Source of the DNA: Leucobacter soli
Lineage (GTDB): Bacteria > Actinomycetota > Actinomycetes > Actinomycetales > Microbacteriaceae
DNA length: 40,743 nt
Assembly: GCF_910593785.1 (NCBI RefSeq)
Contig: NZ_CAJVAP010000026.1
Location: 1 to 40,743 of the forward strand
Direction of reading: 5' to 3'
The position numbers and the translations under genes were made by a program. The notes below the pieces were generated by a model. It was given only the letters and a program-made list of their open reading frames with translations, was not told where the DNA came from and ran no database searches. Below are positions 9,193-19,037 of this stretch, piece by piece. Each line of letters begins with the position of its first letter. The first letter of the stretch is position 1.

Positions 9193-10503
9193 CTACGGGC
9201 GACCCATCCCCGTATACGTCCATCCGGCCGCCCGCCAGCGAGCGGGGTCGAGGCAGTTGCGCCCGTCGATGACCGTGCGCCCCTGCACCAGTCCGCCGGC
9301 CCGCTCGGGGTCGAGCTCGCGACGGTACTCGTCCCACTCGGTGACCACGATCACGAGCGAGGCGTCCGCGAGCGTCTCGTCGAGGCTCTCCGAGTAGCTC
9401 AGTTCCGGGCGCACGCGCCGCGCGTTCTCGATGGCCTGCGGATCGGTGACGACCACGTCGGCACCGGCCTCGTGCAGCTTCGCGGCGATGTCGAGCGCCG
9501 GCGAGTCTCGCACATCGTCCGAGTGAGGCTTGAACGAGGCGCCGAGCACGGCGATCCGCTTCCCGGCCGGGTCGCCGCCGAGCGCCTCGGCCGCGAGCTC
9601 CACCACGCGATCCCGGCGGCGCAGGTTGATCGCGTCGACCTCTCGCAGGAACGCGACGGACTCGCCCCGGCCGAGTTCCTCGGCGCGGGCGGAGAAGGCC
9701 CGGATGTCCTTCGGCAGGCAGCCGCCGCCGAATCCGATGCCGGCGCCGAGGAAGCGGCGGCCGATGCGCGCATCGTGCCCGATCGCGTCGGCGAGCTGCA
9801 CCACGTCGGCACCGGTCACCTCGGCGATCTCGGCCATCGCGTTGATGAAGCTGATCTTGGTGGCGAGGAAGGCGTTCGCGGCCACCTTCACGAGCTCCGC
9901 CGTCGCGTAGTCGGTGACGATGAAGGGGGTGTCGTTCTCGACGGCGGGGCGGAACACCTCGCGCAGCACGTCGGCGGCGGCCTCGCCCGCCTCACCCGCG
10001 GGCACGCCCACGACCAGGCGGTCCGGATGGATCGTATCCTCCACGGCCCAGCCCTCGCGCAGGAACTCGGGGTTCCAGACGAGCACGGCGCCCGACGGCG
10101 CGACGATCTCCGCCAACCCGGCCGCGGTGCCCACCGGGACGGTCGACTTGCCCGCCACGATGTCGCCCTCGGCGAGGTGCGGCAGCAGCGCCTCGATCGC
10201 GGCGTTCACGTACCGCAGGTCGGCCGCGCCGCCGTCGGCGCTCTGCGGCGTCCCCACGGCGATAAAGTGCACGCGGCTGCCTGCCGCGGCCGCGAAGTCC
10301 GTCGAGAAGCTCAGGCGCCCCGACTCGAGGCCGGCGGTGAGGATCTCCTGCAGTCCCGGCTCGAAGAACGGTGCGCGCCCCTGGCGGAGCTCCTCGATCT
10401 TCCGTTCGTCGACGTCGATGCCGACCACCTCGTGGCCGATAGACGCCATGGCGGCAGCGTGCACCGCACCCAGGTAGCCGCAGCCCACAACGGTCATCCG
10501 CAT
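9193..10503 (-). CDS. ugd: UDP-glucose 6-dehydrogenase
   Basis: This 436-residue enzyme oxidises UDP-glucose to UDP-glucuronate with two NAD+. It has the N-terminal Rossmann motif 'GCGYLGAVHAAAMASIGH', the Asp after beta-2 ('GIDVD'), 'VGTPQ', 'KSTVPVGT', and the catalytic Cys262 in 'GFGGGCLPKD'. The C-terminal NAD/UDP-binding domain includes 'LGASFKPHSDDVRDSPA'. The family is usually 390-460 residues, so it looks complete. ATG 10503 has GGAGG 6 nt upstream. It runs opposite to the two glycerophosphotransferase paralogues on either side. UDP-glucuronate would supply a teichuronic-type or other uronic acid component of the wall polymer. Its upstream region holds the 167-bp palindromic element. 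Confidence 0.95.
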   Translation of the reverse strand: MRMTVVGCGYLGAVHAAAMASIGHEVVGIDVDERKIEELRQGRAPFFEPGLQEILTAGLESGRLSFSTDFAAAAGSRVHFIAVGTPQSADGGAADLRYVNAAIEALLPHLAEGDIVAGKSTVPVGTAAGLAEIVAPSGAVLVWNPEFLREGWAVEDTIHPDRLVVGVPAGEAGEAAADVLREVFRPAVENDTPFIVTDYATAELVKVAANAFLATKISFINAMAEIAEVTGADVVQLADAIGHDARIGRRFLGAGIGFGGGCLPKDIRAFSARAEELGRGESVAFLREVDAINLRRRDRVVELAAEALGGDPAGKRIAVLGASFKPHSDDVRDSPALDIAAKLHEAGADVVVTDPQAIENARRVRPELSYSESLDETLADASLVIVVTEWDEYRRELDPERAGGLVQGRTVIDGRNCLDPARWRAAGWTYTGMGRP

Positions 10504-10538: not shown

Positions 10539-10705
10539 CTAGTGCCCTGCGCCGGAAATTCGCTTCACAGATCCGAGCACTCCCGCGGCGCCTCGCTTCG
10601 TTGTCGTCGATCGACGATGCTTCGGCATCGCCTCACTCCTCCGCCTCGCGACGCATCCACGGGAGCACTCGTCTCTGCAAAGCAACTCCCGGCGCAGGAC
10701 ACTAG
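10539..10705 (-). repeat. 167-bp imperfect palindrome, MITE-like or structured RNA element
   Basis: The arms 10539-10596 and 10648-10705 are complementary with few defects. Both ends read CTAGTG inwards, followed after one variable base by CCTGCGCCGG. Over the outer 50 positions about 39 match exactly. The mismatches include eight transitions, plus a ninth in the inner part, and every one gives a G-U wobble if the minus strand is transcribed. Two adjacent transversions would form a tandem G-A mismatch, and there are single bulges. The apical region contains CGATGC-TTCG-GCATCG (10615-10630). CTAG at both ends could be a target duplication like that of IS5-group elements. No reading frame is evident inside. 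Confidence 0.7.
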
Positions 10706-10775: not shown

Positions 10776-12548
10776 GTGCCCGCCTCCGACCAGCTCGCCG
10801 AGTTCGCCGCGCGCTTCGACGACAACCTGCAGATGCACGGCTCGACGCTCGCGCTCCCCCCGGCCGAGCAGGCGGAGATCGCCGCCGCATGCCGCGACAC
10901 CCTCGGCGCCGCGCTCCGAGAGCTCGGTCCCGAGCAACTGCGCGCCCGCCTCGCCGCCGTGAGATCCCCGGAGGTCGCCCACGCCTGGCTCGCCGATCTC
11001 GGGCTCCTCGACCGGACGCGCGCCGTGCAAGCGTACCCGGACCCGGTCGGCCGTCGCCGCCGCTTCCTGCTGTACGCGTCCGACGCCGAGCCCCGCTTCG
11101 CGGTCGCGGCCGGAGGCGCACTCGTCGAGACCAAGGTGCGCTCGGTCGAGATCCTCGGCGAGCACTGGGTGTACGAGCACAACCTGATCGTCGAGACCGA
11201 TGCTCCCGCCGAGGTGCGCTTCGCGGATCTCCGCGGCGGGATCCGCGTCGAGGAGCCCACCCCCGCACTGCCGCCGCCCGTCGACCCGGCGGTCGCGGAG
11301 CACCGGAGCCGCAAGCCCTGGCGCAAGCTCCACCGCCTCGTCGATGCGGACTGGTGGAACAACCGGAAATTCCGGCTCTCCGGCATCATCTCGCGGAGGA
11401 TCGGACCGCTGCGCCGCTACGAACGCGCCTGGGTGCTGGCCGACCGCCGGCATCAGGCCGACGACAACGCGGAGGCGCTGTTCCTCCATCTGCACGCCGA
11501 ACGGCCCGATATCAACGCCTGGTTCGCGCTGGACCGGCGCGTGCCGGCCTACCGGCGCCTTCGCCGCATCGGCGCCAAGCTCGTGCCCTACGGATCGATC
11601 CGCCACTACCTGCTGCTCGCCCGCGCCGAGGTGTTCGTCTCTTCGCAATCCGACCCCGGGTCGCGCAACCCCTTCGGATCCTTCCTCGCCACGAGCTGGC
11701 TCTTCGTCTACCTCAAGCACGGGATCATCCACACCGACCACCATCGGCGCTTCAACCCGATGCAGATCCATCTCGTCACCGCCGCGACCGAGGACGAGCG
11801 GCAGGGCCTGGTGCGCGAGCGCGGGCCGTACCGCTTCGCCGCGGGCGAGGTGCCGCTCACCGGCATGGCCCGCCTCGATCGCCTCGAGGCCGAGCTGGCG
11901 GCGCGGCGCGAGCGGGGCGACTCGCCCGACGTGCTGCTGATCACCCCGACCTGGCGGATCTACCTGGCTTCGCCGAACGCGGATCACCGCTGGTCGTTGC
12001 GCGAGGGAGCCCAGGCCAGCGACTACGTGCGCCAGTGGTCGGCGCTGCTGCACGACGAGCGCCTGCGCGCAGCCTGCGAGCGGCACGGCCTCCGCCCGGT
12101 CCTCCTCATGCACCCGCGCTTCCAGCACCACCGCGAACTCCTGCCGACTCCCGCATGGATGTCGGTCGCCTCCTACCACGACGGCGTCGCGGAGCTCTTC
12201 GCCCGCACCCGGCTCTCCCTCACCGATTACTCCTCCGTCGCCTTCGAGGCCGCCTACGGCGGGGCGCCGACCGTCTACTTCCAGTTCGACCGCGAGGCGT
12301 TCTTCTCCGGCGGCCACAGCAGCCAGCCCGGCGACTACGACTTCCGCGCCCAGGGCTTCGGCCCGGTCGTCGAGTCCGCCGGCGACGCCGTGACCGCCGT
12401 GGCCGCCCTGCTCGACGGGACGGACGGGAATGCCGACGAGGCGGCCGGCTACGCTGCGCGGATCGCCGCGCTCTACCCCTGGCGCGACGGTCGCAACTGC
12501 GAGCGATCGACCGCGGCGATCGAGCGGCTGATCGCCGAGCAGCGCTGA
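10776..12548 (+). CDS. CDP-glycerol glycerophosphotransferase family protein (paralogue B)
   Basis: The 590-residue protein is closely similar to the protein at 7264. The shared blocks include 'ADRRHQADDNAEALF', 'PDINAWFALDRRVPAYRRL', His315-Gly in 'YLKHGIIHTDHHRRFNP', 'TPTWRIYL', His446-Pro, TDYSS (483-487) and 'YFQFDREAFFSGGHSSQ'. It should transfer a polyol-phosphate unit in teichoic acid synthesis; substrate and acceptor cannot be read from the sequence. The start is GTG 10776, six bases after TAGACT and without a ribosome site, which fits a leaderless mRNA. It converges on the exporter genes. The inverted ugd and the palindromic element separate it from its paralogue. Confidence 0.87.
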   Translation: MPASDQLAEFAARFDDNLQMHGSTLALPPAEQAEIAAACRDTLGAALRELGPEQLRARLAAVRSPEVAHAWLADLGLLDRTRAVQAYPDPVGRRRRFLLYASDAEPRFAVAAGGALVETKVRSVEILGEHWVYEHNLIVETDAPAEVRFADLRGGIRVEEPTPALPPPVDPAVAEHRSRKPWRKLHRLVDADWWNNRKFRLSGIISRRIGPLRRYERAWVLADRRHQADDNAEALFLHLHAERPDINAWFALDRRVPAYRRLRRIGAKLVPYGSIRHYLLLARAEVFVSSQSDPGSRNPFGSFLATSWLFVYLKHGIIHTDHHRRFNPMQIHLVTAATEDERQGLVRERGPYRFAAGEVPLTGMARLDRLEAELAARRERGDSPDVLLITPTWRIYLASPNADHRWSLREGAQASDYVRQWSALLHDERLRAACERHGLRPVLLMHPRFQHHRELLPTPAWMSVASYHDGVAELFARTRLSLTDYSSVAFEAAYGGAPTVYFQFDREAFFSGGHSSQPGDYDFRAQGFGPVVESAGDAVTAVAALLDGTDGNADEAAGYAARIAALYPWRDGRNCERSTAAIERLIAEQR

Positions 12549-18941: not shown

Positions 18942-18987
18942 GGAGCGGTCGGCGCACCGCCGCGCCGGCAATCTCTCCGGGCGTATT

Positions 18988-19020
18988 GCGCGCTCCCTCC
19001 GCCGTGCGGAGGGAGCGCGC
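18988..19020. terminator. Strong bidirectional hairpin terminator
   Basis: A perfect 15-bp stem (18988-19002 with 19006-19020) has a 3-nt loop. It sits between the convergent ends of the 65-residue gene and the metalloprotease gene. It lacks a T-run but is the most stable simple hairpin in the window. Confidence 0.8.
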
Positions 19021-19037
19021 AAGTGAGAACTCTCGGC

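Follow-up and report, generated by a model that had tools for sequence, protein, structure and literature searches.

A gene-less CTAG-ended hairpin element of about 166 bp, dispersed in Actinomycetes and Clostridia, with mismatches biased toward folding of one strand

The locus

The window analysed here is a whole stretch of 40,743 nucleotides from Leucobacter soli (contig NZ_CAJVAP010000026.1 of RefSeq assembly GCF_910593785.1), in which a long imperfect palindrome lies between a gene of the UDP-glucose/GDP-mannose dehydrogenase family (ugd) and a divergently transcribed gene of the CDP-glycerol glycerophosphotransferase family (Table 1).

Table 1. The hairpin element and its surroundings, in window positions
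Feature	Position	Strand	Basis or remark
Element, 167-bp IS630-type MITE	10539..10705	- (strand kept foldable)	Sequence, arm alignment, folding, R1 match
Left CTAG; its TA is the probable target duplication	10539..10542	.	Sequence; uninterrupted sites of four other copies
Right CTAG	10702..10705	.	Sequence
Left arm (3' arm of folding strand)	10539..10594	+	Arm alignment; family covariation
Right arm (5' arm of folding strand)	10650..10705	-	Arm alignment; family covariation
Apical core: GGA-rich versus GAC-rich, tandem G-A mismatches, CGATGC/GCATCG closing stem	10595..10649	-	Invariant columns, pair table
Neighbour: UDP-glucose/GDP-mannose dehydrogenase family gene (ugd)	9193..10503	-	35 nt from element, outside it
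Neighbour: divergent CDP-glycerol glycerophosphotransferase family gene	10776..12548	+	70 nt from element, outside it

Arm alignment confirms the palindrome with CTAG ends described in a first-pass annotation of this DNA: when 60 nt of each arm are aligned there are 45 matches, 9 transitions, 5 transversions, and 2 gap columns, and all nine transitions become G-U pairs on the minus strand, with no A-C (two-sided sign test, p=0.004). Folded as RNA, the minus strand reaches -119.9 kcal/mol (z -13.2) and the plus strand -79.3 kcal/mol (z -6.7), 0 of 200 shuffles equalling the value in either case, so that the minus-strand RNA is about 40 kcal/mol more stable. DNA parameters again prefer the minus strand (-55.3 versus -44.4), and because both sets of parameters favour the same strand, folding energy cannot separate RNA from single-stranded DNA.

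The covariance model of the family, R1, matches the window copy over its full model length at 127.6 bits, this copy being one of the 34 sequences from which R1 was built. CTAG is strongly avoided in the window: base composition predicts about 114 sites and 13 are present, the two ends of the element among them. The curated covariance models of Rfam gave no match at gathering score across the window; at E up to 1, eight loci with copies gave a single weak match, outside the element. Elsewhere in the window, a perfect 17-bp inverted repeat with a 3-nt loop (18986-19022) resembles a terminator and is a weak chance match to R1.

A dispersed, gene-less element

A search of the genome and its relatives for further copies, proposed in the first-pass annotation, found them at other loci. 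The window's own genome (G000, a draft, 98.7% complete) contains three further strong matches, one of which (C8) is full length by R1; with an E threshold of 1e-6, 7 of 100 sampled relatives, the own genome counted, have DNA matches; and a complete genome of the same genus (G009) has 14 matches to a core pattern. Scanning GTDB contigs with a core pattern yielded at least 118 stretches; those listed, 80 in number, belong to Nocardioides, Marmoricola, Propionibacteriaceae, Candidatus Leucobacter sulfamidivorax, and other Actinomycetota, and also to Lachnospiraceae and other Clostridia. When 197 genomes of the window's class were sampled, R1 had matches in 53 of them and in 21 of 91 genera, with at most the best 14 candidates scored per genome.

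Among mobile DNAs, the phage collection had no match to the element, and viral contigs had none to the exact core pattern. Plasmids gave partial element matches only (17 Streptomyces records with L155 as query, 4 with the window copy), and R1 found one full-length copy, on a Streptomyces atratus plasmid (L445). Of the 17 Streptomyces plasmid records, 3 are wholly unannotated and the other 14 carry no feature where the element matches, according to a gene table that is known to be incomplete. The element thus looks like a common repeat that is apparently unannotated, and searches of the open-access literature found no description of this family of about 166 bp.

Length is nearly constant: 96 of 99 distinct genomic copies measure 164-170 bp, typically about 166 bp, without a gene, and 79 of the 99 have exact CTAG at both ends. 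(An earlier collection of 61 sequences was reduced to 58 by leaving out a 35-bp artefact and two sequences of 184 and 207 bp.) Elements also occur in chains with a common CTAG; at L248:2766-3093 a chain of two abuts an IS630-type element, with CTAG sites in common. Departures in size include an 80-bp copy lacking the apex (G009:C1:577870-577949) and a 274-bp copy with extra apex sequence (L070:1310-1583). The palindrome of the window is not a ugd-specific leader; it belongs to a gene-less element whose copies are dispersed.

Anatomy of the hairpin

The outer arms are very different between subfamilies and palindromic within each; the apex is common to subfamilies with unrelated ends, in Actinomycetes and Clostridia alike. 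On the folding strand the apex opposes a GGA-rich to a GAC-rich stretch, forming tandem G-A mismatches among which each third position is a G-C pair, and a short stem closes the whole. In the 34-sequence alignment, 21 of 22 invariant columns fall within the apical core, and one core pair, G-C in most sequences (31), is inverted to C-G in the other 3.

Co-variation, which the first-pass annotation had also suggested checking, extends through the entire structure: 91.7% of cells are paired, and double changes occur in 43 of the 52 pairs, a level that 0 of 500 shuffles attained, and pairing falls to 30-47% when partner columns are shifted by 1-3. If it were confined to the outermost 25 nt, covariation would not prove a single-strand structure, since both ends must fit one transposase.

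IS630-type ends, target sites, and mobility

Two Lachnospiraceae genomes contain seven transposase genes lying between inverted ends 1.2-1.4 kb apart, the ends starting with TAG. Four (L119, which is element L247, and L242, L244, and L251) score above the cut-off of the NCBIfam IS630 family; pieces of L132 (= L248) and L250 score below it; and L249 is classed as a transposase by Pfam DDE_3 only. Over 24 nt, six Lachnospiraceae arm clusters match these IS630 ends, at best in 18-23 of 24 positions and with cluster means of 14.6-19.9; actinobacterial arm clusters have no match to the Lachnospiraceae ends in the same comparison. Matching ends being IS630, we set aside a REP element of a Y1 (HUH) transposase, with a GTAG or CGTC tag.

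In the window's own draft genome no IS630 gene and no DDE_3 match were found, and a search of G009 for an IS630 partner with the window's arms found none; the unpaired end matches inspected there (L238 and L239 left out) are the 80-bp internally deleted copy or lone ends, and the IS630 gene of G009 adjoins a different end sequence. Within the window's order there are two IS630-type elements, L463 (frameshifted) and L466, whose ends are only similar to the window's. R1 had no match inside the IS630-type elements scanned, MITE copies being found only beside two of them. In a Nocardioides genome, a CTAG-flanked element of 1120 bp (L113:2163-3282) has an rve/IS481-type transposase.

Tenzen and Ohtsubo reportedly identified, to judge from the title of their 1991 paper, the TA within CTAG as the target of IS630. 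Joined-flank queries for 15 copies returned uninterrupted homologous sites in relatives, among the matches listed from the best 5 candidates per genome; under the same limits no uninterrupted site was seen for the window copy. Ten uninterrupted sites, belonging to 4 copies, were aligned: 4 (for 3 copies) have an exact single CTAG and 6 have altered letters, which is consistent with duplication of the TA in CTAG. A neighbouring gene's stop, as called by our ORF caller, lies within a CTAG end in 26 of the 99 copies, and we take this to be a by-product of CTAG targeting. The IS630 family is described as moving by cut-and-paste with TA duplication, with double-strand excision, in the available extract of one account (PMC2170065).

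Dispersal, CTAG sites that are uninterrupted in relatives, and IS630-like ends together identify the element as an IS630-type MITE, and the mobile, MITE-like origin suspected in the first-pass annotation is upheld on the same grounds.

Comparison with known repeats

Judged by its description, the closest known system appears to be RUP, the 107-bp repeat unit of pneumococcus, found in one species and proposed to be mobilised by IS630-Spn1 (PMC2229807, in extract). Both are small gene-less repeats with IS630-family-like ends and a TA target; RUP is shorter, and the extract reports no further signature of structure or function. The present element differs in its length of about 166 bp, in having one apical core under many ends, in its spread through Actinomycetes and Clostridia, and in its one-strand selection. 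Identity with RUP was rejected on the 167-bp length and the other hosts. YPAL/RU-2 of Yersinia is likewise an intergenic hairpin repeat, of about 168 bp, but according to the same extract lacks TA termini and has duplications of 3-26 bp (PMC2229807), and was rejected on the CTAG ends of our element. The QMITE families of Coxiella are MITEs reported as small RNA sources but, compared by description only, differ in sizes and duplications, and QMITE2 contains a GTAG REP (PMC5896051, in extract). IS630 insertion sequences themselves share the CTAG/TA target and have ends like six arm clusters, but the element is without a transposase. What is unusual about the element, taken as an IS630-type MITE, is the conserved interior under different ends, the spread across Actinomycetes and Clostridia, and the one-strand bias.

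A family-wide one-strand bias

Mismatches were counted over 58-nt arms on the folding strand, with orientation set by the core. The first set was made up of 18 arm clusters; of its 93 distinct sequences the 90 measuring 160-172 bp were used, and the summed cluster means were 97.2 for G-U against 22.1 for A-C, 50.1 for G-A against 7.4 for C-T, 10.5 for G-G against 3.6 for C-C, and 8.6 for A-A against 7.9 for T-T. G-U exceeded A-C in 15 of the 18 clusters and equalled it in 1, falling slightly short in the remaining 2; two large clusters are without bias (L321, G-U 1.24 versus A-C 1.47; L192, 2.6 versus 2.8). The first-pass annotation had held that copies with mismatches in both directions would speak against selection of a hairpin, and in part this is what the family shows: A-C mismatches do occur, but as a minority, and 2 clusters of the first 18 lean slightly the opposite way.

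A second set of 40 further copies from 28 actinomycete genomes was drawn from R1 hits and is hence not fully independent of the model; one of its 18 clusters (16 of the 40 copies) was already represented in the first set and was excluded, and the 17 novel clusters (24 copies) were counted. Here the sums were G-U 88.2 and A-C 15.8, G-A 40.0 and C-T 7.3, and G-G 21.7 and C-C 3.5, with G-U above A-C in 17 of 17 clusters and G-A above C-T in 15, below it in 1, and tied in 1.

Within clusters of at least two members, we compared differences fixed in the cluster consensus with changes present in one copy only, noting that single-copy variants may contain sequencing errors and that copies of one genome are not independent. 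In the first set, fixed differences were 54 G-U and 11 A-C and single-copy changes 36 and 31 (Fisher p=0.0004); the second set alone gave 35 and 5 fixed and 14 and 6 single-copy, which is not significant (p=0.16); and both sets together gave 89 and 16 fixed and 50 and 37 single-copy (Fisher p=3.9e-5). For G-A versus C-T the figures were 42 and 5 fixed and 16 and 9 single-copy (p=0.014). Single-copy G-U variants arose from both G-C (21) and A-T (15) pairs. The strand bias is thus family-wide, the folding strand retaining G-U and G-A and being depleted of A-C and C-T; and because the bias is strong in fixed and weak in single-copy differences, selection is favoured over mutation bias. The selection on a minus-strand hairpin that had been suggested for the window copy therefore gains support from many unrelated arm sequences.

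Orientation to genes and replication

In tandem-gene settings among the 99 copies, with neighbours assigned by a crude ORF caller, the folding strand was sense in 32 and antisense in 24 (p=0.35); among 18 further actinomycete copies (from 19 loci, one without a recognised core) it was sense in 2 and antisense in 4. A 3'-UTR model, based on an early count of 58 elements in which the folding strand followed the gene in 38 of the 54 that had one upstream, was dropped when 99 copies gave 32 versus 24, and an orientation bias of 13 versus 3 in the high-GC subset was opposed by the 2 versus 4 of the further actinomycete copies. An apparent link to replication in four genomes, where 37 of 54 copies share one direction on the assumption of an origin at base 1, failed with that assumption: a search of the first 20 kb found no dnaA motif in any of the four, and the GC skew of G009 contradicts an origin at base 1.

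Nature of the selected hairpin

In the reading that we think probable, a non-autonomous MITE of IS630 type, about 166 bp long and moved in trans, has had one of its strands selected as an RNA hairpin that aids its persistence. An IS630 transposase acting in trans would move the element by cut-and-paste, duplicating the TA of CTAG; a putative RNA hairpin would be made when transcription runs in the direction of the folding strand; and the tandem G-A module may be bound by a host factor, or may shield the transcript, so that the element persists. Two observations speak against transcription of the folding strand: i) there is no significant orientation bias relative to genes; and ii) a search of the window locus found no sigma-70-like promoter.

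It is rather unlikely, though deserving of serious thought, that the same MITE is instead selected to fold as single-stranded DNA during replication, repair, or transposition, RNA being irrelevant. DNA hairpins tolerate G-T and G-A too, DNA parameters favour the same strand, and orientation relative to genes has no significant bias, all of which would suit such a fold; but the link to replication direction rested on the origin assumption that failed, and the available extract describes no such stage for IS630-family transposition (PMC2170065). RNA appears the likelier selected form, since the double-strand excision described there offers no obvious single-stranded stage. Selection on RNA and on single-stranded DNA would predict the same bias.

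Strand-specific mutation is known in transcribed DNA, and the outer arms would be kept alike because both ends must fit one transposase; strand-specific mutation combined with arm homogenisation might therefore generate a G-U bias with no structural selection at all. We consider this quite improbable: i) the single-copy variants are near balance (36 versus 31 in the first set, 50 versus 37 in all) and the fixed differences are not; ii) the G-U variants come from G-C and A-T pairs alike; and iii) the excess of G-A over C-T and the compensated core pair are left unexplained.

The hairpin lies 35 nt upstream of ugd with the folding strand in ugd sense; that it is a cis-regulatory leader or small RNA belonging to ugd, along the lines suggested in the first-pass annotation, is scarcely credible, given that the same bias recurs in homologous copies at unrelated loci, that orientation to neighbouring genes has no significant bias, and that no Rfam match was found in the window or near other copies. 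If a promoter lies upstream of the element, the hairpin would form part of a ugd leader, the folding strand being ugd sense; under our preferred reading of an IS630-type MITE selected as RNA, this would be a by-product of the landing site, and effects on ugd would be possible and incidental.

MITEs are usually seen as internal deletions of one insertion sequence, with an interior that may decay freely. In this element it is the interior that is conserved, across two phyla and despite unrelated ends, and one of its strands is apparently under structural selection. This pattern suggests that the hairpin has a function, and the more than 100 natural copies provide a test case. With more doubt than conviction, we would go further and regard the element as a selfish structured RNA module, a one-strand hairpin of about 166 nt with its tandem G-A core, that has exchanged its terminal repeats and been carried by many IS630 transposases across Actinomycetes and Clostridia. 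Were this true, it would be a mobile non-coding RNA outliving any one carrier transposon, and not a decayed insertion sequence.

Hairpins with other apices

Five hairpins of about the same size have another apex (L132:6335, L145:5814, L200:875, L168:7044, and L120:87). Their transitions are one-sided in one orientation (G-U 5 to 9, A-C 0 to 1), the orientation not having been fixed in advance and three of the five being one family; a 72-bp element (L207:1516) is not one-sided (G-U 1, A-C 3). The one-strand fold may extend beyond elements with this core. The three related hairpins constitute a second family of 166-bp CTAG hairpins (L132:6335-6500, L145:5814-5979, and L200:875-1040), with a different apex, the same one-sided G-U, and ends that read CTAGAGC.TGT.TGAAAATT.
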